DNA of 55,145 nt from Bacteroidaceae bacterium (GTDB lineage: Bacteria > Bacteroidota > Bacteroidia > Bacteroidales > Bacteroidaceae). A model generated the notes under the pieces. The model worked only from the letters and a program-made list of their open reading frames with translations, did no database searches and had not been told where the DNA came from. The first letter of the stretch is position 1; the number at the start of each line of letters is the position of its first letter. This document shows, one piece after another, positions 18,408 through 36,468 of this stretch. The position numbers and the translations under genes are program-made. The DNA lies in assembly GCA_017429525.1 (NCBI GenBank), contig JAFROT010000002.1, positions 1 to 55,145 on the forward strand, in the 5' to 3' direction.

Positions 18408-18411
18408 AGTC

Positions 18412-18486: not shown

Positions 18487-18493
18487 TCAAACC

Positions 18494-18532
18494 TCCTTAA
18501 TGCAACATTGCTACATTGCTACAATGCTACAT
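18494..18532. repeat. TGCAACATTGCTACA repeat, left copy
   Basis: Begins CTTAATGCAACATTGCTACA and continues with further ATTGCTACA/ATGCTAC units. The same 20 bases occur in the same orientation at 35089. The right end runs into the last codons of the DUF3987 gene. Confidence 0.7.
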
Positions 18533-20834: not shown

Positions 20835-20874
20835 AAGATTTAACTCTTAACTATTAACTATTAACTATTAACTC

Positions 20875-21204
20875 TCAACTCACCACCTTGTCCATTTCCC
20901 GTTCGATAAGCGCGTTCTTGGCGTCGCGTGTGTGCTCGTCCAGCAGCCACATCATGTCCGCCGTGCCTACCTCCTTGGGCAGACTCGCGTGCACCTTGAT
21001 GCGTTCGATACTTTCCTTCACCCATCCCCACGGCAGCTTCCGCACCAAGCGGTCACGCTCACGGTTGCGGTTCTGCCGGTTGTACGCCTTGAAGGTTAAA
21101 CGACCTGTGTTCCCATCCACGTACAGAACACCTTCCACCCTTTTGCTGCTCTGCAGCTTGGCCATCACCGTGATGGCATCCTTGATATCGATATACTTTT
21201 TCAT
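20875..21204 (-). CDS. Hypothetical protein
   Basis: A 109-residue, strongly charged protein that I do not recognise. It begins MKKYIDIKDAITVMAKLQSS, has a short beta-like segment (GVLYVDGNTGRLTFKAYN), an Arg/Asn-rich stretch and a helical C terminus (AKNALIEREMDKVV). No Cys, signal peptide or membrane segment. It lies 40 bases upstream of the DUF3987 gene, separated by simple TTAACTA repeats, and is probably in the same transcription unit. Confidence 0.6.
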   Translation of the reverse strand: MKKYIDIKDAITVMAKLQSSKRVEGVLYVDGNTGRLTFKAYNRQNRNRERDRLVRKLPWGWVKESIERIKVHASLPKEVGTADMMWLLDEHTRDAKNALIEREMDKVVS

Positions 21205-21304
21205 TGTTTTGAGTTGATTTTTGCGAGAAGAAGGTCGGATTCTTTGGCCATTTACTCGAGAACATCCTCCTCACTTCAACTCATAGTGAATGAATTATGA
21301 ATTG

Positions 21305-21583
21305 TTAATTATGAATTATGAATTTCACGACGTTCACGTCATTGTAAACCTTGCCATTATATTCGCGTGTTCTCACGCCGAAGTGCACGTCCACGTGCTG
21401 GCCCACCACCAGCGCCGTCTCGGGGATTCGGTCGTTGAAGAGGTCGAAGACCATAGCGTTCGGGAATGCCACGCTCTCATCGTCCTCCATGACCACAAAA
21501 GTCTGCTTGCGCCACTGAGCGCCCTGCTGCGACACGCCCTCCTGGAGGGGCATCACCTGAATAATCTTACCTGTAATTTTCAT
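21305..21583 (-). CDS. DUF3127 family protein
   Basis: A 92-residue protein that matches DUF3127: MKITGKIIQVMPLQEGVSQ, then QWRKQTFVVMEDD, and the C-terminal VHFGVRTREYNGKVYNDV. The family is thought to adopt an OB-like fold and is common in Bacteroidetes, where it is often found with phage or replication genes. DNA binding is an inference. It sits between the Bro-N gene (21-bp gap) and the 109-residue gene. Confidence 0.75.
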   Translation of the reverse strand: MKITGKIIQVMPLQEGVSQQGAQWRKQTFVVMEDDESVAFPNAMVFDLFNDRIPETALVVGQHVDVHFGVRTREYNGKVYNDVNVVKFIIHN

Positions 21584-21604
21584 GAATCTTAAGCGATTAA
21601 AGCG

Positions 21605-21919
21605 TTACTGAAAGTGAAGTGAAGTTGCAGCGCCTCTGTCAGCAGCGAGTTGCAGAAGGAGTATGACGTCATACAGACCGTCCTCGTTCACGAACGATGC
21701 CATCTGCGTTCCACCCTCGGTCTTAAGGGAGTGTTTTGAAACCACCCCCTTGTCGAGGCGACGCACCACCTGTCTGCCGTCCAGCGCCAGCGCAGCGCAC
21801 ACATCCTTCAGGCAGAACAGAGGTTCGCCTTGTCGGTTCACCATCGTTCGGACACGTCCGAACACATGGCTCTCGAAGATTTGAACCCGCGTGGGGTTCG
21901 AAGAAGATGTTTGTTTCAT
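21605..21919 (-). CDS. Bro-N domain protein (phage antirepressor type)
   Basis: A 104-residue protein made of a single BRO-N domain: VQIFESHVFGRVRTMVNRQG, then EPLFCLKDVCAALALD, then FVNEDGLYDVILLL. In phages the domain is joined to a second DNA-binding part and acts as an antirepressor. Here that second part is missing, so it is either a short stand-alone form or a remnant. It has the best promoter of the block and is the first gene of a probable unit Bro-N, DUF3127, 109-residue protein, DUF3987. Confidence 0.8.
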   Translation of the reverse strand: MKQTSSSNPTRVQIFESHVFGRVRTMVNRQGEPLFCLKDVCAALALDGRQVVRRLDKGVVSKHSLKTEGGTQMASFVNEDGLYDVILLLQLAADRGAATSLHFQ

Positions 21920-22045
21920 CTTTTTGAAATAAAGTTTTAATTAGACATGAGTGCGCAGGCCATCATATATAATAAGGTGTCCCCTTGCACCGTTGATTGT
22001 GATTGCCTCGGGAGTTGATAGCGTCCCTCGGTTAGATTTTCGGTG

Positions 22046-22053
22046 CAAAGGTA
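22046..22053 (-). promoter_or_regulatory. -7 box upstream of the Bro-N gene
   Basis: TACCTTTG on the minus strand. No good TTTG lies at the expected distance. It would give a leader of about 120 bases before the ATG at 21919. Confidence 0.5.
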
Positions 22054-22088
22054 CTACTTTCTCAAGTAGCTGCATAGGACAAGAAACA

Positions 22089-22123
22089 CGAAAAAGCCTA
22101 CCATCCGTGAGAATGGTAGGCTT
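22089..22123 (-). terminator. Terminator of the 175-residue gene
   Basis: AAGCCTACCAT (22094-22104) pairs perfectly with ATGGTAGGCTT (22113-22123). On the minus strand the stem is followed by TTTTTCG. It lies about 30 bases after the stop codon at 22153. The 12-mer GCTTAGTAAACT occurs twice here (22120 and 22143). Confidence 0.85.
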
Positions 22124-22152
22124 AGTAAACTTTCGGAAGTAAGCTTAGTAAA

Positions 22153-22680
22153 CTATTTCAATGCTAAATACAAATTGCTGGCCAACGTGACGGCTTCTTC
22201 GCAATCTTTTCGGCGAGTTCCGTCATTCTTCTTGGGATACATCAGATCGATGTATGCTATCATCGAACTCTGGTCTTTGATGAACGTATCAAAGTATTTA
22301 TCCGCCTTCTTGTTCATGTTCTGGACGGCATAAATAACTTTCTCTTCCGTGCGTTCTTCGTCCACCAGATTGGGATATGCCTCTTTGACCAACCGTACAA
22401 ACGCCGGTATCTCCTTTGAAGTCAGCAACCTCCTTGCCCACAAGGCGAGCAACAGAAAGTACAGGCGGCTGGGTTCGTTAACGCTCAGCAGTCCCGTAGC
22501 AAAGCATGCTGCTATCTTCGTCGTGAGGGGGGGCTGTTCGTTGCCCTCTCCCTCTTCCACCACCTCCGCCTCTTCGGCATCCACTTCCCAACGCGCACGC
22601 CCTGTCTGGTGCAAGTTGACCACGCCACCCTCGTTGACCTCGATATTCGGTCCGTAGTTGTTCTTGATATTAAATCCCAT
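22153..22680 (-). CDS. Hypothetical protein with NYGPNIE motif, dnd-island 3' gene
   Basis: A 175-residue protein not recognised by me. It opens MGFNIKNNYGPNIEVNEGG, followed by an acidic linker and a helical body (KIAACFATGLL, then LYFLLLALWARRLLTSKE). The C-terminal half is charged and helical. The motif NYGPNIE-x-N-x-GG is shared with the C terminus of the next gene upstream (22906-24141), which suggests that the two proteins share a partner or structure. It is 225 bases downstream of the main dnd operon, behind two tandem repeat tracts, and ends with a strong terminator. Confidence 0.65.
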   Translation of the reverse strand: MGFNIKNNYGPNIEVNEGGVVNLHQTGRARWEVDAEEAEVVEEGEGNEQPPLTTKIAACFATGLLSVNEPSRLYFLLLALWARRLLTSKEIPAFVRLVKEAYPNLVDEERTEEKVIYAVQNMNKKADKYFDTFIKDQSSMIAYIDLMYPKKNDGTRRKDCEEAVTLASNLYLALK

Positions 22681-22683
22681 TTT

Positions 22684-22735
22684 GCTTAAATATCGCTTAA
22701 ATATCGCTTAAATATCGCTTAAATCGCTCTTAAAT
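22684..22735. repeat. 11-bp tandem repeat GCTTAAATATC
   Basis: Three perfect units (22684, 22695, 22706) and a degenerate tail, directly upstream of the start codon at 22680, so it lies in the presumed leader of that gene. Confidence 0.85.
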
Positions 22736-22796
22736 CATACATTCTTACGAGCAGCTATACATCACATTATCAAATATTTAAAATATTATCTACCGA

Positions 22797-22844
22797 TTTT
22801 GCTCGTAATTTTGCTCGTAATTTTGCTCGTAATTTTGCTTGTAA
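22797..22844. repeat. 12-bp tandem repeat TTTTGCTCGTAA
   Basis: Four units at 22797, 22809, 22821 and 22833, the last with one change. The junctions spell TAATTTTG on the plus strand, identical to a promoter -7 box, but no plus-strand gene follows. TTACGAGC also occurs at 22745. Confidence 0.85.
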
Positions 22845-22905
22845 TTGTTCGGAATTTTCACTTTTTGTATATGTCCATATCTTCAAAACGTTTTTCCATT
22901 ACCAT

Positions 22906-24141
22906 TTATTGTTCTTTATCCTTGCTCGGCAGCGACAACGTCCCGCCATTATGCTCAATGTTGGGTCCATAGTTCTTGTCGATGTTCGTTTCCTTCTTAT
23001 TGACAAGTTCCAAAGTGTTGTTAATCTGCGTCCTTGGCTCCTCTAAACTTTTCTTCACAACATCAGTAAGTTCATGAATCGCATCAACAACTGGATTTAC
23101 CTGTTCTTTCTCCGAACAGCCATTATCAGTTGGTTGCTGCGTTGAAAATGTTTCGTTGCAATTATCCTCTTTCAACTTTTCGATTTGTTTGAGGATTTCT
23201 GGTATAGCATCAAGATAAACAAAGAATGTACTGATATCCTCAAACGACAAAGACTTGCGATGCTCAAAGATGTACTTGCCAATCTTTTCTTTGTAGGGGT
23301 TATTATCGTCATCAACCATTTCAGCTAATGCCAATACTTCACGTATTTCATCCTCAGTTTTATCTGTCCCAGGATGCTCTTTCTTGTAATCTTCGATGTC
23401 GTATATGTTGATACCGTCTTTAAGCGCATCAAGGAAATTCGATTCATAGAGATTCTTCCACACCTCATCCTTCAATGCATAGAACTTGTTACACTTCCTC
23501 TTGTTAGACAGATCTTCCTGCAAAATTTCAACTATTCGCACTCTATATGAAAGCCATTGCTCACTGAATCGTCCATGCTGCATCTCATAGAAATTAAGGA
23601 ACAGCTCTTGTGGAGGATTGGATAAAAGAGTTTCTATTTTACTTAATACCAGTATTAATGAAGTTAAAGCATCAAAGACCATGTTGCCAAATGTTATCAT
23701 GTGAGTTTTATCACTATTGATAGTTTTGACAAATGCTGACGTTGACTCTTTACCGGCGTATTTGGAGTGACGTAGAACACTATTGACTGTTTTAAGGTAG
23801 GACTTCCTTCGATTACTATGTATCCTGTCTGAAGATAAACCATTACCCATATTTAATGGGAAATCGTCAATACATGCATTCTGTTTCGCACAATCAAGAA
23901 GCATATCCCAACTACTCAATTCTTTCCAGTATGCAAAATCAATGTCAGCGTCTGGGCCTTCACCATACGGCAAAAATTCAGACCAACTTTCATAGAGTTG
24001 TTCAAATAAGCAAGCGGTGTCTAAAATCTCAGAAACAAGTGCAAGACGAAATATTCTATTTGCCACACCAAACGACATGTCAAATTGAGTCAAAGCATTT
24101 TGTAACTTTTCTAGCGTTTCGAGATATTCTGACTTCGCCAT
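22906..24141 (-). CDS. Hypothetical protein, last gene of the dnd operon
   Basis: A 411-residue, largely helical protein that I do not recognise. Visible parts: an N-terminal helical region (YLETLEKLQNALTQFDMSFG), an RKSYLKTVNSVLRHSKYAGK stretch, acidic middle helices, and a C-terminal tail ending in the motif NYGPNIE-x-N-GG that recurs at the N terminus of the next downstream protein. No nuclease, ATPase or membrane motif is apparent. It starts 21 bases after the 165-residue gene. Position in the operon suggests a part in phosphorothioate-dependent restriction, or a sensor or regulator of it; this is inference from context only. Confidence 0.65.
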   Translation of the reverse strand: MAKSEYLETLEKLQNALTQFDMSFGVANRIFRLALVSEILDTACLFEQLYESWSEFLPYGEGPDADIDFAYWKELSSWDMLLDCAKQNACIDDFPLNMGNGLSSDRIHSNRRKSYLKTVNSVLRHSKYAGKESTSAFVKTINSDKTHMITFGNMVFDALTSLILVLSKIETLLSNPPQELFLNFYEMQHGRFSEQWLSYRVRIVEILQEDLSNKRKCNKFYALKDEVWKNLYESNFLDALKDGINIYDIEDYKKEHPGTDKTEDEIREVLALAEMVDDDNNPYKEKIGKYIFEHRKSLSFEDISTFFVYLDAIPEILKQIEKLKEDNCNETFSTQQPTDNGCSEKEQVNPVVDAIHELTDVVKKSLEEPRTQINNTLELVNKKETNIDKNYGPNIEHNGGTLSLPSKDKEQ

Positions 24142-24162
24142 TAAATAATATTCAAATAGAGG

Positions 24163-24660
24163 TTATACATTTTCGAGTTCCTGCAAGATTTCCACAAAAA
24201 TCGTTGGCGATTCAAATCTGACGCGCTGGTTTACCCATAAGTTATTTATATATTCTAAGCCTCTGTTTGCATAGCCTTCCATTTCACGTTCAAAAGTACG
24301 CAGAAATGCTGATATGGTTTCTTCGTTGGCATCCTCTAAATCCATCCAATCGTAACCATAATCTTTTGAGCGATTGAAAATCATCATAATAACATAATCG
24401 CGGATTTGTGTTGGCTTCCATTTTTGCATTAGTGCAAATTCCCATGATTTTTCATTCGCGTCCAGATATTTGGGAGTACCCAGGCGCATGCCAATGATAC
24501 AGGCATACATGTATGTCTGATAGTAAGCTCCAAACTGGGCAATATTGCCTTTACCTGTCTTCTCCAATTTATTGGAAATGGCATCAATCATTGAACGGTA
24601 TTGGTCACTATAATGTGGACGCAAATCCAAAATCTTTTCTCTAAATGTTGAACTGTTCAT
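24163..24660 (-). CDS. Hypothetical protein, dnd-operon component
   Basis: A 165-residue helical protein without a recognised domain. It contains IAQFGAYYQTYMYACIIGMR in the middle, an aromatic stretch KDYGYDWMDLEDA, and ends FVEILQELENV. Small helical proteins that lie next to a Rad50-like ATPase often serve as its partner, as in ABC-three-component or Lamassu-like systems. That comparison is a structural guess, not a match. It is 11 bases downstream of the zinc-hook ATPase gene. Confidence 0.65.
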   Translation of the reverse strand: MNSSTFREKILDLRPHYSDQYRSMIDAISNKLEKTGKGNIAQFGAYYQTYMYACIIGMRLGTPKYLDANEKSWEFALMQKWKPTQIRDYVIMMIFNRSKDYGYDWMDLEDANEETISAFLRTFEREMEGYANRGLEYINNLWVNQRVRFESPTIFVEILQELENV

Positions 24661-24671
24661 AAAGCGGTTCT

Positions 24672-26807
24672 TTATTTAGTATAACAATATTTCTTCGTGA
24701 CAAGATTTCCAGCATCAGCTCTCGTCTCTGCATAATTCACATAGAAAGACCCCTGAAGCAGACCATTATTCATTTGCTCCACAATGGCTTTGCCATGCTC
24801 GTTTATTAAGTTGTCATCAGCAGGGTCATAAAGATCTTTTATCATTATGATGCTTTGGCGGAACACGTTGGGGGCTATCTCAAAGAAATTATTCATGAAA
24901 TTCCAACTGAACTCAGAGAAAGGTGCATCAGAAATGAATGGGTAATCAAAACTCTTATTTCCAACCTTTGATGAAATAATAGACATAACAATAGCTAGCT
25001 GTTTCATCCTTTGGAATCCTGTGCCATTACCATATAACTCCTCGCCTTGATAATCAATGACAGAGACTCTAACGGTACCATCGTCAAGTCTATCAAAAGT
25101 TAAAGTGCCTCCAAATGTCTGATTTCCCTTTGTTAAGTCAGAATACATTTCGTTAGCGGCAGTCTGAAGGTTGTCAACAATACTCTTAAAGATGCGTTCT
25201 CTTGTTGAATCAAACATTGTCTTTATGACCTGCATATTGTCATACAACTCTTTTGCCTTCCTAATTGGTGTGGAGCCTTGTCTTTTATCCAATTCCTCCT
25301 TCGCCTTTGTTAATGCACTATCCCAGATTTTTATTTTACCAGTCCACCTTTGTATTTCTTCATTCTTATTGGAAATGGTTTGTTTGGCCTGGTTATAGCC
25401 AGACAGTACTTTACGGTCTTCCTCCTCCGTACTATTTTCTATACCAACCAAGGTTAGTTCATTCTCTTTGGCTTCTACAATCCGCTCCTGAGCTTCTATC
25501 TGATCATCCAAATCATATATATGATTCATATACTGCTCAAAACTCTCTTTAATCTGAGGAATAGTAGCCTCATAACGGCCTGTAGCATTTTGCAGACCAC
25601 TATAGAATTGCATAAACGATGCAGAGGTACGCATTTCTTTATGTGGCCTTTCAAGAACTTTTTTGATATGGAGCCAAGGGGCTGTGCCCTTCTTTGCTTC
25701 TCGATCACAAACCTCGCAGTGTTCATGTTCAAGCATTCTTCGCAATGAAGGAGCATCAGGCGAATCGTCAGGAAGGAGGATTTGTGGATTTTGAGATATT
25801 TCTTGTGCCGTTATCTTCTTCGTTAACTCTATTCGATTTGCATCAAAATCACCAGTCTCATTCCCCAGTCCCATTAGAATCCAAGGACAGTTTTCGTCAA
25901 AAAGCCTGCTCGTAATCGACAGTTCCTGCTCTGCTTTTTCACGTTTTAAAGAATCCAACTTGGCACACTCTTCTTCATATTCATGTCTTAATTGAATGCG
26001 TTTTTTGCTGGAGAAGAATTCTGATTCATATTGTTGCTCCTTCTCTTTTGCCTTTATTAATTCCTGACGTGCGAGTTCAATCTTTTTATTGGCATCCTCA
26101 ATCCATTTTTCAAGATTATCACGCTCTTCTCGAAGTTTAAGAATTTCATTGCTTGCACCTCTATTCTTCGTCTCTTCTTTGTTATACTCCTGTTTTGCTT
26201 GTTTTACAAGTTCAGAAGCAAGGCCACACATTCTTATGAGGTTATTGATGTCAGCAAGAGCGTTGATAGTATTCTCTAGTCCGTTTAGAGTGGATAGGTC
26301 AACAAGTCGCTCCATTGACTCACCCTGAAGCAAAGCATACTTCTCCATATCGGCGGGAATAAGCATTCTAATAGCATCTTGTTGTTTCTGTTTATCCATA
26401 ATAGGCATGTCCTCGTTGTCTGTAGTCATTAAGACATTCGTTGAAGGGAAAAATAGCCAACTGCCATCTTCCAACTTGCAATGTACCTCTTTACATACCT
26501 TGTACCAGACTCCTTCTGATTCGTATAAAATTGTAACGCCCATATCCAGCTCGACGTTTTCACGACTTGCTTTTTTTGACATCATCTTATTATAAGACTC
26601 AGAAACAGGATAATAACGCTTATCATCTGAATCATAGACCTGATCATCTAATATCCACAGGAAACCATTGTATAATTTTGACTTTCCCATGTTATTATCA
26701 GCGTTGATGATATTTATACCCTCTTTGAAGGTATAGGTGTTGTCCTCATAACTCCCATAATAATTATAGAAGTTTTGGAGACTGATTGATTTTATAAATG
26801 TACCCAT
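24672..26807 (-). CDS. Rad50/DndD-like ABC ATPase with central zinc hook
   Basis: A 711-residue SMC-type ATPase. The N terminus ISLQNFYNYYGSYEDN leads into a P-loop region at 36-43 reading ADNNMGKS. The first Gly of the usual GxxxxGKS is Ala here. Long coiled coils follow, with a zinc-hook CEVC at Cys364/Cys367, almost exactly at the midpoint. Near the C terminus are a signature-like GFQRMKQLA and a Walker B stretch FISDAPF with Asp627. It is distinct from DndD, which is encoded in the same operon without a CxxC hook. Likely role: the ATPase of the restriction or DNA-sensing arm. Its neighbours are a 70-residue and a 165-residue protein. Confidence 0.85.
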   Translation of the reverse strand: MGTFIKSISLQNFYNYYGSYEDNTYTFKEGINIINADNNMGKSKLYNGFLWILDDQVYDSDDKRYYPVSESYNKMMSKKASRENVELDMGVTILYESEGVWYKVCKEVHCKLEDGSWLFFPSTNVLMTTDNEDMPIMDKQKQQDAIRMLIPADMEKYALLQGESMERLVDLSTLNGLENTINALADINNLIRMCGLASELVKQAKQEYNKEETKNRGASNEILKLREERDNLEKWIEDANKKIELARQELIKAKEKEQQYESEFFSSKKRIQLRHEYEEECAKLDSLKREKAEQELSITSRLFDENCPWILMGLGNETGDFDANRIELTKKITAQEISQNPQILLPDDSPDAPSLRRMLEHEHCEVCDREAKKGTAPWLHIKKVLERPHKEMRTSASFMQFYSGLQNATGRYEATIPQIKESFEQYMNHIYDLDDQIEAQERIVEAKENELTLVGIENSTEEEDRKVLSGYNQAKQTISNKNEEIQRWTGKIKIWDSALTKAKEELDKRQGSTPIRKAKELYDNMQVIKTMFDSTRERIFKSIVDNLQTAANEMYSDLTKGNQTFGGTLTFDRLDDGTVRVSVIDYQGEELYGNGTGFQRMKQLAIVMSIISSKVGNKSFDYPFISDAPFSEFSWNFMNNFFEIAPNVFRQSIIMIKDLYDPADDNLINEHGKAIVEQMNNGLLQGSFYVNYAETRADAGNLVTKKYCYTK

Positions 26808-26822
26808 ATACCTACAGAATTA

Positions 26823-27035
26823 TTAGTCAGACACTTTTTTTAATATTCCTTGAAAGACCACATTAGGAGACTTCCTGTTGGCAATACCCTTAATTACGTC
26901 TTTAATGATTTCTATAGTAGTGTTATTAGAGTCGCCAACATAAGACGCATCAGCTAACTCTTCCTTACTAATGCCAAAATGAGTTTGTAACTCATCTGAC
27001 TTCATTAACTCTTTGAATATCTGCTCTGCTTCCAT
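26823..27035 (-). CDS. Small hypothetical protein (70 residues)
   Basis: A short acidic helical protein, MEAEQIFKELMKSDELQTHF and so on, ending NVVFQGILKKVSD. No known domain is recognised. It lies 12 bases after the PLD/helicase gene and 15 before the ATPase gene, so it is clearly within the operon and probably translated. The EEL and DVIKGI stretches look like amphipathic helices, so an adaptor between its two neighbours is plausible. Confidence 0.65.
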   Translation of the reverse strand: MEAEQIFKELMKSDELQTHFGISKEELADASYVGDSNNTTIEIIKDVIKGIANRKSPNVVFQGILKKVSD

Positions 27036-27047
27036 ATTGTTTGGGGT

Positions 27048-29828
27048 TTAATTATTATCTTCGTTTAACACCATACCATCTAAATCTATCTCGTAGAATG
27101 AGATGATCTCTTCCAAAATATTGAGTGCTCCAGTATAATAGTTACTGGCAAGACTTCCAAAATTCGCAACTCTACGCATTTCGTTTTCCACAAGTCTTTT
27201 TTCTAGTGCCCAGAATCTTTTATCGTAATGAGACGAGTAAAAGTCTGGAACAACTACCATGTCGAAAATAAAGGCGAAATGTTTATCATCATGTTTCCTT
27301 AACAGTCTGCCTCGTCTCTGTATGAATTGGCGCGGATTGCCCGTACTTGACGTAAAGATACCATATTCAGCGCGTGGCACGTCTACACCCTCATCCAAGC
27401 AGTTCTTTGCGAACAGCACATCTAACTGCCCATTTGCAAATGCTGCCAGTTTTTGCTTCCGCATTTCTTTTGTGTCTTCTCCTGTATATGAGTTGCAAGT
27501 CACGTTGGGAAAAGTACTTTTCAGGACCTTCTGCATTTCTTTCAAGATGTACTCATCCAGCTGTTCATCGTCAACTTCATCACTATGCGCTCTCTTTCCT
27601 GCGGCAGAATAGACGAAACAATATTTCAGTTTGTCTTCGCCAATATCTTTGATAATATTGCGAAAGACAACCATCTTATTTTTAGCTTTGTGGAGAATAT
27701 TCTTTCTTAGCAATAGCAATCTTCTTGCTCGTTCAGGGTCTGTGTAGCTTCCGCTATTGTTGTATAGCTGAATCAGCTGACGTGTAATCCTTGCATAATC
27801 CACCATCTCGTCCTCTTCCAGTTTAACTGGATAAGGAAAGTAATAATAAGGCATCAATCTTTCTTCTTTGATAGCCCTACGCATTGAGAAACTATAGGTA
27901 TATGGATATGTGTCATTGAAGAAACTTTCTATCTCCCTTGTCCCTTCTTCGTCATACACACGATTAGGTGTGGCAGACAATGCTATTCGTCTTGTGATAC
28001 TTAATCTGTGGAACGCATTCCTAACAGAAGATGAGCCTATGTTATGAGCTTCGTCTGCTATGAGTATTGCGCCCTTTGATATTTTAGGGAGCAACACCTG
28101 GAAGTCATTCATAACAAACGATTGATAGGTAGAAATGATGACGTAGTTCACATTGCGTCCAAGACCAATCTTCATTGTCATCTTTGCCAACTCCTGTTTC
28201 CAAGAGGCATTCTCAGATGATACTTTTATGACATTCCTATAATTAAAGTTGCGCACTTCGTCACCCCATTGCTCTACCAACGCAAGAGATGGAACCAAAA
28301 TCAAAAGGCGGTAATACCCATCGTCAAGATATTCTTCCAATGCGCAATTCAACGATGTGATAGTTTTGCCAGTACCCGTTGCCATTGCAAACACGCCCTG
28401 TTTCCCATTTTTTATCCATGCCTGATAGGCGTCAATCTGATACGGACGTGGACCATCCTTGAATTTGGATGGGAAATGCGGCTCATCCTGATTTGATATA
28501 ATATGCTCTGTTGCTATTTCTTTTAAAACTTCTTTCTCTAGTTTTACCAAGTCATCAACAGCAACAGCAGGTGGATATTCTGTAACGATACGCTGACAGA
28601 ACTCATCGGCAGGAAAAACCATCACGTCTGGATTCCTACTTTCCCAAATGCTATTGAAGTCATCATGATAGCATTTAATCCTATTTCTGTCATCTTCAGA
28701 ACGCCAAGAGCAAATAGAATCGATGGCTTCTATGTTTTTTGTAAGCCCTGAAGCTGTGAGATTCATCGACCCATTAAAAGCGACCTCATTGCCTTCTGTA
28801 TCAGTAAAAATGCCAAACTTTTCATGAGCGATACCATCTTCTTTCAGCAATACCATTTTTACCTCGATACGATGGCGACTTATCAAGTACGACAAGCATC
28901 TAAAGAATAATTCATCTCTGCGAGAGAAAATCTTTAGTAATCTCTCGTAGGTACTTATCATATATTGCTCAAACTCCAGTTGACTAGAACCTCGCAACAG
29001 ATAATAATCTTCTTCTGTGACGTTAGGATTGATATAGAGGCGCATATTGCCTCCATTCTTAACGAAATGTGCAAAACCACAAGCAAGGACGTTGAAACAT
29101 GCGCTGCTGAAATAACCAAGTCCTAAATCCAGTCGTGAGCTGTTTGACAAAGCTTTAGTAAAGAAGTCTGTAGGCTTGTGCTCTCGCCGTGTAGAGTAGC
29201 GTAACTCGAAAGTTTGGCTTGATAAATTAGTCCTTTCTATATTATATTTAGGTTCATCCTCTCTTACGCACCAGACTCCTTCATCTTCAATCTCTAAATA
29301 AGTGGGCTCTTCATCTTGAACACGTTGTTTTGTATAGTCTATACTACACAACCCCCACCTATCTATATCTTGGAAATGAATAAAGACATCCTTGTCTTGA
29401 CACAAAGAAGATTGAAGATTTCTTCGAGTCGTTTTATTTTCCCTATGGTCATTAACATATCCCAAAATATAATTCAAATCTTGGGGTGCCGGCTTATTCT
29501 CAAGATACTCTTTTGCCAAGTCTCTAATAGAAGATTCCCTTCTTCCCGTTCTATCTGCCCTTTGTGGTACTGGAAGAGTGATATAATCATCAGGGTCTGA
29601 GAAAAGACCGTGAATGTCAGAAACCTCAATTTCCAGCACTTCTGCTATTTGTGCAGATTTTGTCACATCATAGTCGCGCCAAAACTCATGATGATCCTCT
29701 ATGTACTCTTTAAGCGTGAAGCGCTCACCGCCTTTAGCAGCAGATAACTGCTGCCTAAATACCTTGTGGAACTCGTCAAAGTCGAACACGTCGGCATAAT
29801 CCATACGCTTAAAGAGGTCTATGCTCAT
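27048..29828 (-). CDS. PLD-nuclease / SF2 helicase, probable phosphorothioation-dependent restriction enzyme
   Basis: A 926-residue protein joining a phospholipase D-like nuclease module to a superfamily II helicase. The PLD part has HEK at 335-337 and FNGSMN at 351-356. Helicase motifs are MATGTGKT with Lys488, DEAH at 592-595, SATPNR, and QRRGRLLR in the C-terminal domain. I recall a curated family named DNA phosphorothioation system restriction enzyme with this position beside dnd genes, and this protein fits it. The start codon overlaps the end of dndE by four bases (ATGA). It would translocate on or cleave DNA that lacks sulfur modification. Confidence 0.85.
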   Translation of the reverse strand: MSIDLFKRMDYADVFDFDEFHKVFRQQLSAAKGGERFTLKEYIEDHHEFWRDYDVTKSAQIAEVLEIEVSDIHGLFSDPDDYITLPVPQRADRTGRRESSIRDLAKEYLENKPAPQDLNYILGYVNDHRENKTTRRNLQSSLCQDKDVFIHFQDIDRWGLCSIDYTKQRVQDEEPTYLEIEDEGVWCVREDEPKYNIERTNLSSQTFELRYSTRREHKPTDFFTKALSNSSRLDLGLGYFSSACFNVLACGFAHFVKNGGNMRLYINPNVTEEDYYLLRGSSQLEFEQYMISTYERLLKIFSRRDELFFRCLSYLISRHRIEVKMVLLKEDGIAHEKFGIFTDTEGNEVAFNGSMNLTASGLTKNIEAIDSICSWRSEDDRNRIKCYHDDFNSIWESRNPDVMVFPADEFCQRIVTEYPPAVAVDDLVKLEKEVLKEIATEHIISNQDEPHFPSKFKDGPRPYQIDAYQAWIKNGKQGVFAMATGTGKTITSLNCALEEYLDDGYYRLLILVPSLALVEQWGDEVRNFNYRNVIKVSSENASWKQELAKMTMKIGLGRNVNYVIISTYQSFVMNDFQVLLPKISKGAILIADEAHNIGSSSVRNAFHRLSITRRIALSATPNRVYDEEGTREIESFFNDTYPYTYSFSMRRAIKEERLMPYYYFPYPVKLEEDEMVDYARITRQLIQLYNNSGSYTDPERARRLLLLRKNILHKAKNKMVVFRNIIKDIGEDKLKYCFVYSAAGKRAHSDEVDDEQLDEYILKEMQKVLKSTFPNVTCNSYTGEDTKEMRKQKLAAFANGQLDVLFAKNCLDEGVDVPRAEYGIFTSSTGNPRQFIQRRGRLLRKHDDKHFAFIFDMVVVPDFYSSHYDKRFWALEKRLVENEMRRVANFGSLASNYYTGALNILEEIISFYEIDLDGMVLNEDNN

Positions 29829-30217
29829 ATCTCGCTCAATCCTTCATGAATCTTATCAAACAAATAATCGAAGCCCACCAAATTGGGGTTGTCTTTAACG
29901 TCTTTATCTATCAGCTCTAGGCCATCGTCAAGGTGTAACTTAAAGTATCGTGGCAGATTTTTGTCTGTACTCTTTATTTGGTAGTGTTCACAAATCATAG
30001 AAAGATACAGCGGAAACAGATTGCCAAACAATACGTTCCTGCTATACTCCTTACCACCAGAGTCCTTGACTTTTGTAGGATCGAAATGCTCACCTTGCTT
30101 CAATGAGTATGCGATGGCTATACGTGCAATGATATTCTCTGCACCAAGACCAAACTTTCTTGTCAGCCTCGTCACACGCTCTTTGTTTTCTGTGCTTGTC
30201 TTTATCTGTCCTATCAT
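29825..30217 (-). CDS. dndE: DNA sulfur modification protein DndE
   Basis: A 130-residue protein. The DndE family is small and was reported to bind nicked DNA and act with DndC and DndD in phosphorothioation. The pattern fits: IKTSTENKERVTRLTRKFGL, then ENIIARIAIAYSLKQG, then NVLFGNLFPLYLSMICEHY. It lies four bases after dndD and overlaps the helicase gene by four bases, so translation is probably coupled. Confidence 0.9.
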   Translation of the reverse strand: MIGQIKTSTENKERVTRLTRKFGLGAENIIARIAIAYSLKQGEHFDPTKVKDSGGKEYSRNVLFGNLFPLYLSMICEHYQIKSTDKNLPRYFKLHLDDGLELIDKDVKDNPNLVGFDYLFDKIHEGLSEI

Positions 30218-30221
30218 TGCC

Positions 30222-32336
30222 TTAATTCTTTTGCATTAAACTTTTCACGTTAGCAGCCTCAAAGTATGACCTCGAAGTGTCGTTGGCAATCAGCGTAGCA
30301 CTCTCGACAAATGGTTGCAGAGTCTTGTATTCTGCCTCCGTCAGTTCCTTGTGCAACAGTGGGAATAGAATAACTTGCTTTGAGATAGAGGGATAGAATT
30401 CGCTAATAATTTTCGAAGAATGGCTCTTGTCAAACTTCTGTAAGGGGCTATCAATGAATACAGGGAACTGGATACCGCTCTCGTCAACAAGTGCCTTCAG
30501 TATTGAGGTAGCATAGAGTTGCTTTTCACCCTTAGAAAGCATATTCTTGTTGATAACGTTGCCGTCACTTGAAAACAGATTGATATCCATCGTATCAGTG
30601 CCAAGTTCTACCTCCACATGACTGATAAAATCTTCCTTGTGCATCAGTGTGTTAAGCGTATTCTTGATGCGAAGTTCAAGTGACGATTTCTTGTTCTTCT
30701 TCAACGAAAGCAAGAAGGTATCAAGTTCTGTAATAAGTTCGCTAGCCAGCTTGTCCTTTGCTTCGTCAGCATCGTCAACGCTGATCTTGCGACTAAGTTC
30801 TTTTATCTTCTTGTCGTAAGACTCTATTGTCGACTGCAACTCGCCAGTCCTGATGTGGCCTAAACGCAGTTTCTCCTCGTTGGCCTTGATTTCTGTCTCT
30901 ATCTTATTCTTGCAATCACGCAGACCTTTAATCACTTCGTCGCTCTCCTTATTCTGGATGTTTGAAAGTCTTTTGACATTGCGCTCCAGAGTGATCTTGT
31001 TCTTGCGATAGGCTTCGGCCAATGTTTCAAACTCGATACGATAGGTTGTTGTCAGACTGTTGTAAACGGCTTCAACCTCTGCAAACTCATCGTCAGTAAG
31101 GGTAACTTGAATATCTCTGTCACAAGCACGTCCTCTATATTTCTCGATGATAGCTTCGAGTTGAGTGTGGGCATCTTTCTTGGAATCCTTATTAACAGGC
31201 ATTTTATCAAGAAGTCCCTTCATCTCTTTGCTCAAAGCATCCAAGACATTGTTCTGTGCAGTAGCGGTGTTGTTGTTGGCTATTGCTTCGTGGTCTGCTT
31301 TTGCTAATTCATAGGCACGAGCAAACAACTTGCCTGAAATGGCAAATGGTGCATAGTCGATGAACTGCTTTAGGGCAGATTTCATCTCAATATCGTCTTT
31401 CTTACATTTTTCAATGACAGCCTTTACACGCTGAAGTTCTTCTGTCTTAACTGAGTTTCCTTCGCGAGAAAGCTGTAACTGTAGCTGGCCATCTTGTTCT
31501 CTCAAGTTTGTCAGAGTGGTTTCTATTTCTGCCAACGAATCAGAAAGCTGAGTCAGTTCATTTGATACACCCTCACGTTCTGCCTCCATTTTTTCCAACT
31601 CGTCTTTCAGGCCTATATCCTTTGACTTCTTTCGATAGCGCAGACGCAGACCTTCAAGGTTATTCCTCAGTTCTTCATACTTCCTGATACCAAGCACTTC
31701 TTCGTAAGCCTTGCTCAACTTACGCCGTTCAGCAATAGTGCCAGTATCTGCTAATGATACGATTTCTTCCGAGTCAAAGAAGAAAAGCTTGGCAATATCC
31801 CTATTCAGAATGAAATCATTAATAAACACCTCAGGGCCAATCTCATCTGTCAGTTCATTCTTAATGCCGTCTATCAGAATCTCAACATCCTCTCTTTGAA
31901 GTAGTGCATCGTAACTCCTAGTAACGACAATCTTCTGGCAAGGTATAGAAGGAATTCCAACTTCTACAAAGCTGATGGCAACGCTATAGACGCAATCTTT
32001 CTTTATCTCTTCATAGCCGTTGGCGTAACCATTCTTCTTTATCAGCGCAACAATCTCTGGAGTCGCTTTTTCTTCAAATCGCTTTGCTGCATTTTGGTTC
32101 AGGATCTCTTTCTGCATTGCCGCATAGCTGCTGTTAGTTTCTTGACCAGAAACGGGTACATCGCCAACAAACCTGCCAAACAAGCACCACAGCAATGAAT
32201 GAAGCAGCGTGGTTTTGCCAAAACCGTTTTCGCCACAAATCAAATGAACATTCTTGGCTTCGTCAAAGCGGAATTGGATAACATTCTCACCTTCATAAAG
32301 GCGATAATTGTTGAGGATAATGCTTTCAATCAGCAT
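30222..32336 (-). CDS. dndD: DNA sulfur modification ATPase DndD
   Basis: An SMC/Rad50-like ATPase of 704 residues, which is normal for DndD. It provides the energy or DNA remodelling for sulfur insertion. The N-terminal Walker A is GENGFGKT at 35-42, long coiled coils fill the middle, and near the C terminus come the signature LSKGEKQL and Walker B VFIDSPLQKFD. No CxxC hook is seen at the apex; only an isolated Cys in YRGRACDRD. It overlaps dndC by 11 bases. Confidence 0.93.
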   Translation of the reverse strand: MLIESIILNNYRLYEGENVIQFRFDEAKNVHLICGENGFGKTTLLHSLLWCLFGRFVGDVPVSGQETNSSYAAMQKEILNQNAAKRFEEKATPEIVALIKKNGYANGYEEIKKDCVYSVAISFVEVGIPSIPCQKIVVTRSYDALLQREDVEILIDGIKNELTDEIGPEVFINDFILNRDIAKLFFFDSEEIVSLADTGTIAERRKLSKAYEEVLGIRKYEELRNNLEGLRLRYRKKSKDIGLKDELEKMEAEREGVSNELTQLSDSLAEIETTLTNLREQDGQLQLQLSREGNSVKTEELQRVKAVIEKCKKDDIEMKSALKQFIDYAPFAISGKLFARAYELAKADHEAIANNNTATAQNNVLDALSKEMKGLLDKMPVNKDSKKDAHTQLEAIIEKYRGRACDRDIQVTLTDDEFAEVEAVYNSLTTTYRIEFETLAEAYRKNKITLERNVKRLSNIQNKESDEVIKGLRDCKNKIETEIKANEEKLRLGHIRTGELQSTIESYDKKIKELSRKISVDDADEAKDKLASELITELDTFLLSLKKNKKSSLELRIKNTLNTLMHKEDFISHVEVELGTDTMDINLFSSDGNVINKNMLSKGEKQLYATSILKALVDESGIQFPVFIDSPLQKFDKSHSSKIISEFYPSISKQVILFPLLHKELTEAEYKTLQPFVESATLIANDTSRSYFEAANVKSLMQKN

Positions 32337-33678
32337 ATTGGCCTCCTTTCTTTACGAATCTATCCAACTGCTCATCTATATCGTTCTGGAGTCCAAATTT
32401 GCGCATCATCAGCACCTTGCTCTTCTGCAGAGCAAGCAGTTCTTGTATCAACTGGAAGTGCTTCGAATCTGTGCATGATTTTTCCAGAATCAAACGCTCC
32501 TGCAAGCCAATCTCCAAATTGGGAATGTTGTAGCCATAAATCTCGTTGTAAATATCGTTTACCGTTGGCTTGAAGTAGCCATCGCGAAACCATATAACCT
32601 GAATAGCTATCAGTTCCTGGCTGGTTATCAGTCTTACACTGGAGTGACCTCTTTGAACCTCCTTCTGCGTTTCCAGTAGTTCACGTAACATCTGCACTCG
32701 ATACTCAAAAGTATAGTTTCCTTGGTTATGACCTGTTTCGTCAACAGCAGATTGGCCGTTACGACGTGTTGGCAAACGCAGTTCTGATTTATTTCGATTT
32801 TCTACAAGACGATCGTGATATTCCAAAAGAGGCGTCATCCACGTGAATCCATTCCTGATAAGTGAAGTCATCGACTTATCTTCTTTCGCAACGGTACAAA
32901 TCCAGCACCCAAAACGGCTCTGGCCACAAGAGCGGTGACTATCATCTGTCACAACGGTAGGACATTCATAGTCATCGGCAGAGGCATTCATGTATATCTG
33001 GAATAGTATCTCATTGTCAAAGCCCCAGGGTGATGGGATAGATTTAATGACCCACCAAACTTCTTCAAGCATTAGTTCCTTGATAGGAGCATAAGTGAAG
33101 GTGTTGGGATTCAATGGATGCTTAGACAAACGGTGTCCCTTAATTTCATGCTTCTTAATGGAACGTTCACGTTGCTGGCTCTCCGTCAAGCGTGTACCCA
33201 CCAATACAATGGCTTCGCCATCAGCCACCACCTGATCTGTGATGAACTTCGAGGTGGGCTTGATTTTCATCTTGTCTGTGCAGAAACGGAAGGAATTATT
33301 GGGCACAGGGTAACCCTTACCAATAACGCAACTCCAGAAGGTATCCTCCAATTGTGGGGTTGTCCTCACCACCTGAATAGGCAGTTTCTGCTCAATTGCT
33401 GCATCCTCGATTTTTATCAGCACCGTAGAGACATATTCATCAATGACCGGATTCTCTACCATCGTGTCATTGCATACCACATAAACCCTGCGCATCAAAT
33501 CCTTGCCTTCCTCTCTGAGCGAAAGCATGGAAATCCACGTGAGCATCAAGAGTGTTGTGGAGTCCTTGCCGCCCGAGAAACCAATAATCCACGGACGGCA
33601 GTTTCTGTCTGCCTCCATGTACTGGTCTTTCAGCTCGTCAATGACGGCACGCACTCTTTTAGACTTTATCTCGATCAT
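32326..33678 (-). CDS. dndC: DNA phosphorothioation sulfurtransferase DndC
   Basis: A PAPS-reductase-like ATP pyrophosphatase of 450 residues that activates the DNA backbone for sulfur transfer. The PP-loop SGGKDS is at 35-40. A cysteine group SCGQSRFGCWIC (C-x6-C-x2-C) plus an earlier FRFC fits the iron-sulfur cluster expected in DndC. It is the first gene of the operon and has a good promoter 25 bases upstream. The sulfur donor, DndA or a housekeeping cysteine desulfurase, is not encoded in the window, and neither is DndB. Confidence 0.95.
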   Translation of the reverse strand: MIEIKSKRVRAVIDELKDQYMEADRNCRPWIIGFSGGKDSTTLLMLTWISMLSLREEGKDLMRRVYVVCNDTMVENPVIDEYVSTVLIKIEDAAIEQKLPIQVVRTTPQLEDTFWSCVIGKGYPVPNNSFRFCTDKMKIKPTSKFITDQVVADGEAIVLVGTRLTESQQRERSIKKHEIKGHRLSKHPLNPNTFTYAPIKELMLEEVWWVIKSIPSPWGFDNEILFQIYMNASADDYECPTVVTDDSHRSCGQSRFGCWICTVAKEDKSMTSLIRNGFTWMTPLLEYHDRLVENRNKSELRLPTRRNGQSAVDETGHNQGNYTFEYRVQMLRELLETQKEVQRGHSSVRLITSQELIAIQVIWFRDGYFKPTVNDIYNEIYGYNIPNLEIGLQERLILEKSCTDSKHFQLIQELLALQKSKVLMMRKFGLQNDIDEQLDRFVKKGGQYAD

Positions 33679-33704
33679 TGCGTAAATTCAATAAATTCGG
33701 GGTA

Positions 33705-33737
33705 CAAAGATAGCGATTATTTCCCGTTTCATGCAAA
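33705..33737 (-). promoter_or_regulatory. Promoter of the dnd operon
   Basis: On the minus strand TATCTTTG (33712-33705) and TTTG (33737-33734) are 21 bases apart. The leader is about 20-25 bases. The 20 bases from 33705 match, with one change, the core of the 56-bp repeats at 34102 and 34888. Confidence 0.75.
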
Positions 33738-34101
33738 AAACACCTTATTTAAACGCGAGACTAAACCATTTTTAACAATGAATAGTCTTTTTTCTTCAGA
33801 ATAGACAGGAAAGGAAATTGTTACAGCTTAAACGATGTGATTCAGCCTCATAATTCTCGCACGAGTCATGCGAGTTTTGTGTCACATTATTCCCTTTTGC
33901 ACTTCTTGGACTGAGCAGAAATTCACAATGTCCTTCTGAGCTTTTGTTAATAAGGGTTTTGAAGGATGAACTTGGTTCGTTTCTTGGTTACGTCCTTGGT
34001 GACTTTTTCTTCGAAAAACATTCATAAACTCATGTTTCCTTCTATCCTATTTCCTCCTTCGACCCACACCTATCGAGAGAATAAGGGGGGGATAACATCA
34101 A
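33738..34101. other. Gene-free spacer upstream of the dnd operon
   Basis: I see no credible gene here. The one notable structure is a hairpin, CTCGCA at 33856-33861 with TGCGAG at 33869-33874 followed by TTTTG, which looks like an orphan plus-strand terminator. The spacer could be the scar of the island's left edge. Confidence 0.5.
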
Positions 34102-34157
34102 CGCCTGCAAAGATAACGATTATTTCCGAATCCCCATCAAGAAAGCACAGAAAAAAC
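34102..34157. repeat. 56-bp direct repeat, left copy
   Basis: Begins CGCCTGCAAAGATAACGATT. It is identical to 34888-34943 at 54 of 56 positions and in the same orientation. It contains the promoter box TATCTTTG on the minus strand (34115-34108). The two copies bracket the ORF6N gene. Confidence 0.9.
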
Positions 34158-34187
34158 GATGATTCTCATCCATCCATCTCCCCTCAT

Positions 34188-34868
34188 TCACTTTTCAGTT
34201 CCTTCTTCCTTCTCTTTCTTCTCTTCTTGAATGAAGCCTATTGGTCTGCGGGGCTTGGGTGAAGGATTGTCGGCCTGCAAGGCTGCCAGCGATTGGTTGA
34301 TGAGTTCCAGCTGCATACGGGTGTCCTCGTTAATCTCGTTCTGGTCGGCAAGGATCTCCTCGATGTCCAGCTTCAACTCTTCGAAGTCGCGACGCAGTTG
34401 GGCCACATCGGCGTTGGGAGCAGGAAGGGAAGCGGCCATGTGGCGCAGCTCCACGAAGGCACGCATGATGCTGATATTCATCTGTATGGCCAACGGTGAA
34501 CGAAGCACACTGCTGAGCATAGCCACACCCAGTTCAGTGAAAGCGTAGGGAAGTTTGCGGGAACCTCCCCAACTTGAAATCACATTTTGTGATATCAAGA
34601 TTTTATCTTGCTGATTATCAGGATGACTTGAAATCACATTTTGTGATATCCAATTTTTTGATGTCGCAATTTGTGATTTCAAAATCTCCCATTCGCCACG
34701 TGTCAGCTGAAACATGAAATCCTCTGGGAAGCGTTCGATGTTGCGCTTCACGGCCTGATTCAATGCACGGGTTTCCACGCCATAGATGGCAGCCAGATCG
34801 AAGTCCAGCATCACCCGCTGCCCGCGTATCTCGTAGATCTTCTGTCTTATCGGTTCCAATGCATCCAT
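34188..34868 (-). CDS. ORF6N domain protein
   Basis: A 226-residue DNA-binding-type protein. The N-terminal ORF6N domain is clear: [37 protein letters not shown] and [11 protein letters not shown], then [18 protein letters not shown]6N proteins occur in phages and mobile elements and are thought to regulate transcription. Where most members read SQIATS followed by a short GG loop, this one carries about 28 extra residues with the phrase ISQNVISS repeated, encoded by direct repeats around a TCACATTTTGTGA core. The C terminus is a coiled coil ([20 protein letters not shown]). It is flanked by 56-bp direct repeats. Confidence 0.85.
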
Positions 34869-34887
34869 AAGGTCTTTTTTTCGTTTT

Positions 34888-34943
34888 CGCCTGCAAAGTT
34901 AACGATTATTTCCGAATCCCCATCAAGAAAGGACAGAAAAAAC
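34888..34943. repeat. 56-bp direct repeat, right copy
   Basis: Second copy of the repeat at 34102, upstream of the ORF6N gene. Confidence 0.9.
34894..34901 (-). promoter_or_regulatory. -7 box of the ORF6N gene
   Basis: TAACTTTG on the minus strand inside the right 56-bp repeat, 25 bases before the ATG. The nearest -33 match is weak. Confidence 0.55.
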
Positions 34944-35179
34944 AAAATGTTGCAATGTTGCAATGTAGCAATGTTGCAATAAGGTGTTTTCAATGTGCAA
35001 CAAATAGAGAGAGTAGAATTTTAATTATATATTATAATTATAATATATAATTAACTATATTTTTAAAGCCTTTCGCAGGTCGGAAAGTGCTTAATGCAAC
35101 ATTGCTACAATGCTACAATGCTGCAAACTGCATCATGAACAATATGTTTACAGATTTTAACACGCCACAGCACCCCATA
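34944..35179. other. Gene-free, repeat-rich spacer
   Basis: No gene is seen. It holds a run of TGTTGCAATG units (34948-34980), an AT-only palindromic stretch (TTATATATTATAATTATAAT from 35024), and the TGCAACATTGCTACA repeat. The TTGCAATG units and the later CATTGCTACA units are partly complementary. Confidence 0.6.
35089..35125. repeat. TGCAACATTGCTACA repeat, right copy
   Basis: CTTAATGCAACATTGCTACA is identical to the 20 bases at 18495, followed by two more ATGCTAC/GC units. Both copies have the same orientation and bracket the accessory region. Confidence 0.75.
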
Positions 35180-35211
35180 TTTGGCAACCTCGCCAAATTG
35201 TCGTACCTTTG
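35180..35211 (+). promoter_or_regulatory. Promoter of the HU-like gene
   Basis: TTTG (35180-35183) and TACCTTTG (35204-35211), 20 bases apart. The transcript would start near 35217 and carry a leader of about 415 bases before the ATG at 35632. Confidence 0.7.
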
Positions 35212-35221
35212 CAGTGTGAAA

Positions 35222-35271
35222 GGAGCAGACCCCCTCCCCGCTCCCCCTGTAGGGGGAGGGTGGTCACCTGG
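35222..35271 (+). repeat. GC-rich palindromic element
   Basis: Copy in the leader of the HU-like gene. It begins GGAGCAGACCCCCTCCCC and is nearly identical to the copy at 20109. Confidence 0.85.
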
Positions 35272-35450
35272 CAAGGCACTGAGCGAATAGACGTTAGTGG
35301 CCACACGAATAGACGCTCAAGCCCCTGCGACAAGTCGTAGTGCGCAATACGACTGCTCGCTTGAAAATGCCTCACACATCAATCAACAAATCAAACCAAC
35401 CAATCATTGTTTAACCCTTAAAAACCAAATCCCCCAACCCGCTCACCACA

Positions 35451-35502
35451 CAGACCCACCCCCCTGCTCCTCCCTGTGAGGGAGGGGAGTGGTCACCCTC
35501 AA
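35451..35502 (+). repeat. GC-rich palindromic element
   Basis: More divergent copy: CTCCTCCCT-GTG-AGGGAGGGGAG, with the conserved end GTGGTCACC. Confidence 0.7.
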
Positions 35503-35550
35503 GACGGGAATCCAACAATAAACCCAACGATGCGGACGCCTGCTCAGAGC

Positions 35551-35630: not shown

Positions 35631-35631
35631 T

Positions 35632-36450: not shown

Positions 36451-36468
36451 CGAACACGAAAAATGAAT

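Follow-up and report, generated by a model that had tools for sequence, protein, structure and literature searches.

Two kinds of described system are close to the locus reported here. According to Xiong et al. (2019; PMC6459918), dndCDEA is accompanied by a four-gene pbeABCD set that halts the replication of virus DNA, and the system is placed in bacteria too. Rakesh et al. (2024; PMC10853773) reinterpret the four proteins as a CxC-DndE system: PbeA as a fusion of an HKD nuclease with a superfamily 2 (SF2) helicase, PbeB as a small protein that evolves fast, PbeC as an ABC ATPase of the CxC clade, and PbeD as a second DndE, of clade 2, with two ribbon-helix-helix domains. The second kind comprises the bacterial amyloid signalling motifs (BASS), which, according to PMC8086366, PMC12261475 and PMC7889193, lie at the C-terminus of Bell and the N-terminus of NLR proteins encoded by adjacent genes. 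Most descriptions of BASS come from filamentous actinobacteria and cyanobacteria (PMC7889193). Here we analyze a stretch of 55,145 nucleotides, called the window, from a Bacteroidaceae bacterium (assembly GCA_017429525.1, contig JAFROT010000002.1, positions 1 to 55,145), in which a putative dndCDE-pbeABCD operon is followed by two further genes whose products carry matching short sequences, here called tags, at their facing ends. The core of the operon is of a known defence kind, the two last genes are accessory, and the tag they share is the new part. We assign a probability of about 0.72 to the reading that the window holds a horizontally acquired DndCDE-PbeABCD operon at a locus with a DUF3987-like gene, together with a tag-docked add-on of 411 and 175 amino acids (aa).

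A Predicted DndCDE-PbeABCD Operon and Two Accessory Genes

A check of the open reading frames (ORFs) of the window recovered nine genes on the minus strand, at the places given in an earlier reading of the bare sequence (the initial annotation).

32326..33678, minus strand: dndC, DNA phosphorothioation sulfurtransferase, 450 aa
30222..32336, minus strand: dndD, ABC ATPase, 704 aa
29825..30217, minus strand: dndE, 130 aa
27048..29828, minus strand: predicted pbeA, PLD (HKD) nuclease fused to SF2 helicase, 926 aa
26823..27035, minus strand: pbeB-like gene, 70 aa, identified by position and size
24672..26807, minus strand: predicted pbeC, zinc-hook (CxC-clade) ABC ATPase, 711 aa
24163..24660, minus strand: pbeD-like gene, 165 aa, in the position of the clade-2 DndE
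22906..24141, minus strand: accessory C-tagged protein, proposed adaptor, 411 aa
22153..22680, minus strand: accessory N-tagged protein, small module, 175 aa

From dndC to the 411-aa gene, the intergenic gaps of these genes range from -11 to +21 bp (dndC/dndD, -11; dndD/dndE, +4; dndE/helicase, -4; helicase/70 aa, +12; 70 aa/ATPase, +15; ATPase/165 aa, +11; 165 aa/411 aa, +21), much as the initial annotation had it in describing eight minus-strand genes that overlap or lie at most about 20 bp apart. The gap between the 411- and 175-aa genes is +225 bp, and the first eight genes are therefore tightly coupled, while the ninth is not. This last gap is AT-rich (G+C content, or GC, 0.289), and it holds two short tandem arrays at 22679-22733 and 22796-22843, with units of 11 and 12 nt.

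The presence of dndCDE, already recognized in the initial annotation, is supported by family matches and motifs. DndC matched TIGR03183 with 389 bits, exceeding the cut-off of 290.4, and the PADLOC DndC model with 447 bits, and its SGGKDS PP-loop and Cys motifs are intact. DndD has Walker A and FIDSP motifs and scored 237 bits with TIGR03185, slightly below the cut-off of 245.85; among the PADLOC matches listed, its top model was labelled PbeC (370 bits), followed by DndD (267 bits), showing that the names of these models overlap. DndE matched PF08870 above the cut-off (92 bits) and TIGR03184 below it (62.9 bits against 71.85). Judged by these matches, the three proteins would supply the DndC, DndD and DndE of the modification module. 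There is no copy of dndA in the operon, in which it differs from the described dndCDEA-pbeABCD system, and the IscS-like match found on contig 26 of this genome (86% complete) scored 126.5 bits, far below the cut-off of 643.2. Among the matches listed for ten proteins compared with NCBIfam and PADLOC, with at most 25 for PbeA and for DndD, none in the operon was to DndB, DndF, DndG, DndH or DndI, in keeping with the early view that the extra proteins are not DndFGH or DndI.

The genes after dndE are best read as pbeABCD. The helicase matched the PADLOC PbeA model with 769 bits and TIGR04095 with 378 bits (below its cut-off of 600), and has intact HxK...D, GSMN, GTGKT and DEAH motifs. The 711-aa ATPase matched PbeC over nearly its full length with 88 bits and has Walker motifs and a zinc hook, CEVC, at residue 364 (strictly CxxC). 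The 70-aa protein had no PADLOC match. A scan of public genomes yielded six related loci (L004-L009; loci are cited by number), all from metagenome-assembled records of Bacteroidetes, Prevotella or Bacteroidales; judging by the RUG and RGIG prefixes these presumably come from ruminant sources, and one record title names goat abomasum. The seven-gene order is identical in all six, protein identities being 64-98%, and each encodes homologues of the 70-aa protein (67-97% identical; a weak match was also found in L020) and of the 165-aa protein. The latter has further homologues in the four distant PbeC loci examined (L020-L023) and, by profile, weakly matches its positional counterpart in haloarchaea. 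Its assignment as a DndE rests on position. Relatives of PbeC were present in 5 of 393 genomes of the order, including that of the window, and in the other four a PbeD relative directly follows the ATPase, two of these stretches being short contigs.

The PbeA and PbeC matches and the A-B-C-D order after dndCDE thus point to the published set: dndC-dndD-dndE, an HKD-SF2 helicase, a small protein, a zinc-hook ATPase and a protein of 160-170 aa stand in the same order as in DndCDEA-PbeABCD. The initial annotation had regarded the extra genes as a possibly separate restriction or sensing unit working with phosphorothioation. Such a partnership is plausible, but the helicase, 70-aa, ATPase and 165-aa genes are not new: by role and order they fit the described PbeABCD set (PMC6459918, PMC10853773), although for the 70- and 165-aa proteins this fit does not extend to the sequence. 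The 411- and 175-aa genes fall outside that set and are not mentioned in the accessible parts of the two papers. An ABC three-component system built around the ATPase was also considered and dropped, as no such Pfam model matched and PADLOC gave PbeA and PbeC. Comparison of the ATPase and of a PbeD alignment with solved structures found no credible relative; Schlafen matches in one such search probably came from an extra stretch in a single member, L020.

The Facing Ends of the Accessory Proteins Carry Matching Tags

The initial annotation noted a motif common to the eighth gene and a ninth one downstream, and the match between the end of the 411-aa protein and the start of the 175-aa protein, which includes the shared motif NYGPNIE, agrees with it.

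22930..22986, minus strand: C-terminal tag of the 411-aa protein, NIDKNYGPNIEHNGGTLSL, residues 386-404
22612..22671, minus strand: N-terminal tag of the 175-aa protein, NIKNNYGPNIEVNEGGVVNL, residues 4-23

A DNA pattern for NYGPNIE gave seven matches in the 139 genomes of the genus (a set defined by the grouping of the tool used), and the reversed control gave none. The matches fell at four loci, namely the window, from which the pattern was taken, L019, L031 and L032, and at all four an upstream gene is C-tagged and a downstream gene on the same strand is N-tagged. In L019, L031 and L032 the C-tagged protein is a different one of ~200 aa, located beside restriction-modification (R-M) genes, and no dnd gene lies within the fetched stretch. 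We take these C-tagged proteins to resemble HARE-type helix-turn-helix domains; Pfam did not show such domains. A second tag, GSxxQVFNG (type D, from L069 and L076), gave seven matches at five loci with no control match, and the three new loci are all pairs once diverged partners are counted. Another type, B, is that of L004, whose source record is labelled only as Bacteroidetes.

Compared with the protein bodies, tags are enriched in N (3.9-fold), G (2.4-fold), V (2.1-fold) and I (1.6-fold), and depleted in R, L, K and W. Where partner residues are identical, the same codon is used in 93 of 222 cases, with 87.4 expected from codon usage, and this agreement, no greater than expected, indicates that tag similarity is kept at the protein level. 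The codon counts bear on the idea that a tag is a by-product of DNA recombination, its similarity marking a site of crossover or cassette swapping with no protein interaction. DNA homology to L005 does end near the tag, and cargo has been exchanged at this locus (see below), but codons of identical residues differ as often as codon usage predicts, and one copy is C-terminal and the other N-terminal, both in frame. These observations largely refute the idea, and we regard it as very improbable.

Homologues of the 411-aa protein occupy the slot after pbeD in L004 and L005. In the same slot (~12650-15350), L006-L009 instead hold genes for a GHKL ATPase, a putative methyltransferase (PF20553) and a protein of ~111 aa, as judged from the ORF layout of all four and Pfam comparison of one copy of each gene. 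With other genes in this slot in four of the six relatives, the 411 gene is optional. Identity of the 411-aa protein to both homologues is 89% over residues 1-185; over residues 186-345 it is 31% to L004 and 74% to L005, and over residues 373-411 it is 26% and 10%, respectively. DNA homology ends inside the gene, at 23585 in comparison with L004 and at 23054 in comparison with L005. The L004 homologue bears a different tag, which matches its own next gene; in L005 neither a tag nor an N-tagged neighbour was detected. No other match to the 411-aa protein was found among 61 relatives or in the 393 genomes from across the order, nor was there a Pfam match above the cut-off or any NCBIfam or PADLOC match.

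Bodies homologous to that of the 175-aa protein are encoded by contig 43 of this genome and by L031, each with its own partner. The contig-43 protein is 64% identical in its body, and its different tag resembles that of its own upstream partner. The initial annotation looked to repeated co-occurrence with dnd genes for support, and the two proteins differ in this respect: the 411 family was found only beside dnd-pbe (three loci, two of them reached via the ATPase), whereas relatives of the 175-aa protein also occur in stretches without dnd. Neither protein had a relative on viral contigs, and alignments of the 411-aa protein, the 175-aa body and a further small body family, N2, found no credible relative among solved structures.

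Tag Pairs in a Survey of the Genus

We surveyed 40 loci with a DUF3987 gene, hand-chosen to favour available upstream sequence (nine of the stretches are shorter than 6 kb), and found a tag pair in ten of them (L063, L066, L069, L073, L076, L077, L078, L085, L096 and L099). In a set that also held the loci already known, 13 within-locus pairs scored at least 45, compared with 0.74 expected, and two of these, in L083 and L098, were dropped by eye as repeats. When overlapping frames were allowed, 16 pairs reached this score compared with 4.1 expected, of which seven were dropped by eye as probable chance or low-complexity frames (L098, L068, L101, L071, L090 and two in L093). The L085 pair (score 40) was kept, since its upstream body is common to L116. 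The ten survey pairs and those of the window, L004, L013, L019, L031, L032, L115 and L116 make 18 in total, among which nine tag types were assigned by eye. The summed score of own partners was 1074, and 20,000 shuffles gave a mean of 545 and a maximum of 865. The own partner ranked top in 7 of the 18 rows, and in the remaining 11 every higher-scoring partner was of the row's own type. This permutation test is partly circular, since tag score had itself picked out most of the survey pairs.

Some pairs were found blind to the tags. L004, reached via the ATPase, has a clear pair of a different type (score 74), and contig 43, reached via the 175-aa body, has tags that fall in one type with those of L066 and L078. 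A tag-blind census was made with a profile of the N2 family, which gave 66 matches in 46 of the 139 genomes, 24 in open frames of at least 328 codons and 42 in shorter ones, five of each being seeds of the profile. From the other 37 short frames 30 were fetched, and seven were excluded (partial, at contig ends, or among the weakest). Twelve of the 30 have a directly adjacent upstream gene, and at eight of these 12 junctions the ends match, with scores of 35-56; the sums from all 20,000 permutations stayed below the one observed.

Tags Follow the Local Partner

Homologous bodies bear different tags, each fitting the local partner, and this holds on both the N side and the C side. On the N side, the 175-aa body carries type A in the window and type C on contig 43, N2 bodies carry D, E and another type, and a further swap separates L077 and L078. 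On the C side, members of the 411 family carry A in the window and B in L004, and swaps are also seen between L077 and L099 and between L085 and L116, with a weaker case between L069 and L013, L066 and L078.

Fused counterparts are observed as well. In L058, L070 and L095 an N2 body is joined, within a single chain, to a body akin to the C-tagged L076 protein, L084 has a similar fusion with a HIRAN match above the cut-off, and in L074, L089 and L090 N-bodies stand at the end of long proteins. As the tag partner in L076 has an N3 body and the fused body is N2, the fusions show the kind of link rather than the identical pair.

The neighbours of these pairs are often DNA-based defence genes. Among 16 pairs with enough context, two lie beside Dnd-Pbe, two beside type I, one beside type III, four beside type IIG or IIG-like and one beside AlwI-type genes, two of the assignments (L031 and L085) resting on BLAST to a panel only. 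Ordinary HsdMSR, Mod-Res, AlwI-type and IIG genes are thus present at tag loci, as recognized by PADLOC and Pfam; they differ from known R-M systems in that the last gene, or an extra small gene, is C-tagged and matched by the next small gene. In L073 (3861-6992) HsdR itself ends in a tag of the INNFxAPV type, matched by the next gene, and in L085 HsdR is untagged and followed by a separate tagged gene. The type I loci L065 and L102 showed neither a tag nor an N-tagged gene. A crude count with the R-M panel (5 of 10 tagged compared with 3 of 30 untagged survey loci) is not used as evidence of association, because the panel was partly drawn from tagged loci. No description of tag pairs on R-M or Dnd systems appeared among the literature matches listed, a search that left subscription literature largely outside its scope.

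The fusions and the tagged HsdR could mean that the tags are constitutive assembly handles, which splice a defence subunit non-covalently to a regulatory or DNA-binding module with no signalling switch. Comparable module pairs do occur in one chain, one tag sits directly on HsdR, and the tags face each other across junctions at which the genes often overlap. Such handles are a real possibility that we put short of even odds, given that simple docking peptides are not usually so rich in N and G and that some pairs have an intervening gene.

As a separate observation, the tag pair of L078 shares its operon with a gene (5705-8137) for an 810-aa protein with matches to the RNA polymerase alpha C-terminal domain and sigma-70 region 4, which stands beside a Schlafen/AlbA_2-type gene.

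Possible Roles of the Tags

Gene content, tag matching, tag swapping between homologous bodies and fused counterparts are observed directly, and for the locus as a whole the following mechanism is proposed. DndCDE would mark host DNA with sulfur, as is known for the family, and PbeABCD would block unmarked invading DNA, as is known for the archaeal homologue, which inhibits virus DNA replication. The 411-aa protein would be an adaptor whose C-terminal, N/G/V-rich tag of ~20 residues docks onto the similar N-terminal tag of the 175-aa protein, and the small 175-aa body would be carried by the defence complex or activated through it. Other tag sequences would likewise join the type I, II, IIG and III R-M systems of the genus to small proteins. 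Physical docking of the 411- and 175-aa proteins is likely, and the 175-aa body may be an effector or a regulator, both being possible; assembly by beta or amyloid-type stacking is less likely than not. The tags appear to represent a means of connecting defence modules that has not been described before.

By analogy with amyloid signalling motifs, the tags may act as homotypic docking elements. As in BASS, short motifs of many families lie at the facing C- and N-ends of neighbouring products and match within a locus. The likeness could go further, in that the tags might be true amyloid signalling motifs, with activation of the C-tagged partner nucleating a cross-beta assembly that templates an N-tagged suicide effector. 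Short, terminal, N/G/V-rich tags of many families, matched in neighbours and laid out as in the described BASS pairs, are what this would predict. In contrast to BASS, however, Pfam recognized no NLR or Bell domain in the window pair or the other tagged proteins scanned, and the tags are attached to Dnd and R-M systems. Within the limits used (E-values of 1 to 0.01), Pfam likewise gave nothing for the 8 of the 18 N-tagged proteins that were compared with it, PHROGs gave one weak match among ten proteins, nine of them N-tagged, and the tagged 199-aa protein of L076 had no match in phage and plasmid collections. With this coverage, some N-tagged proteins may still hold toxic domains. The tag on HsdR, moreover, suggests constitutive docking as well. 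We therefore consider true amyloid signalling unlikely.

A broader reading is that genus-wide, mutually distinct and exchangeable non-covalent tags, of at least nine types, couple DNA-based defences (phosphorothioation and type I, II, IIG and III R-M) to small effectors or regulators drawn from a common pool, by NLR-independent homotypic assembly of the amyloid type or through beta-strands. We hold it tentatively, at a little under an even chance.

Several results weigh against the tag-docked operon or its extension to the genus. The 411 gene is present in only three of the seven close dnd-pbe loci (the window and L004-L009), and the tag pair in two. Profile comparison (hhalign) of the 165-aa protein with DndE gave no match, the alignments being possibly too shallow. 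In 386 genomes across the order, the type D pattern gave nine single matches, with two in the control, and no pairs, so that there is no evidence of this tag outside the genus in that set. At three loci the two tagged genes are separated by another gene, and 6 of the 16 tag loci with context match nothing in the R-M/Dnd panel. L099 encodes a KAP P-loop NTPase that also matches NPHP3_N above the cut-off; it is not itself tagged, but STAND-like ATPases are thus not wholly absent. The contig-43 pair taken alone scores 39, within the range of chance. In the N2 census, one of the 12 junctions was marginal (score 24) and three had no tag match, and 18 of the 30 standalone N2 genes have no adjacent upstream gene (at least one of them at a contig edge), indicating that the N2 body needs no partner in cis.

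In the standalone N2 genes of L151, L152, L155, L157, L158, L161-L163 and L169, for which no partner in cis was detected, a helix-like start is followed by a beta-like stretch (VYVxxGAQHVD-like); these proteins may self-assemble or pair in trans.

The operon adds a further bacterial member to a known defence, one that genomes exchange as a unit. Of greater weight are the tag pairs, which bear on a question raised in PMC7889193, namely whether bacteria have signalling amyloids in pathways independent of NLRs. If docking does occur, it would account for the way in which restriction systems take on changing partners while the genes stay unfused, and the tags would provide a natural set of mutually distinct assembly peptides.

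The Recipient Locus and Exchange of Cargo

The initial annotation inferred transfer from the AT-richness of the region relative to its neighbours. In 1-kb bins, GC is 0.37-0.44 across 22-34 kb and 0.46-0.65 in all other bins of the window, and transfer gains support from an orthologous site in the same genus that holds different cargo.

18519..20834, minus strand: DUF3987-like gene of the recipient locus, PF13148 26.5 bits, just below the cut-off of 27
21584..34944, no strand: region replaced at the orthologous same-genus site (L063, G015 contig 33), from flank alignment

Flank pieces within 17946-21583 and 34945-36468 align to L063 at 72-88% DNA identity, and 4.7 kb of other cargo, with its own tag pair, takes the place of the 13.4 kb of the window. 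Synteny and composition thus support exchange of the island between genomes. The DUF3987-like gene, which we take to encode a primase-helicase, has a relative at an E-value of 1e-10 or better in 98 of the 139 genomes of the genus.

The 411-aa gene is mostly island-like in GC (0.375 for residues 1-350, 0.419 for residues 351-411) and the 175-aa gene is similar to the flank (0.502), which places a composition boundary between the two tagged genes. Together with the 225 bp that separate them, this boundary could mean that the two are unrelated passengers, the 411-aa gene belonging to dnd-pbe and the 175-aa gene to the resident DUF3987 locus, with an incidental match of motifs. An N-tagged gene does lie 242-2126 bp upstream of a same-strand DUF3987-like gene in all 16 loci where this is visible, ten of which were selected for the DUF3987-like gene and six not. 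The match recurs, however, at the three other loci with the same tag, and it follows the partner where bodies are homologous, and we find chance association of two passengers improbable.

Beside the island, at 34188-34868, lies a gene with an ORF6N domain that matched the PADLOC candidate defence family PDC-S05 with 181.5 bits. A 20-nt element (CAAAGATAGCGATTATTTCC-like) occurs three times, at 33705-33724, 34108-34127 and 34894-34913, upstream of dndC and around the ORF6N gene, and two of the copies extend to 56 nt at 96% identity.

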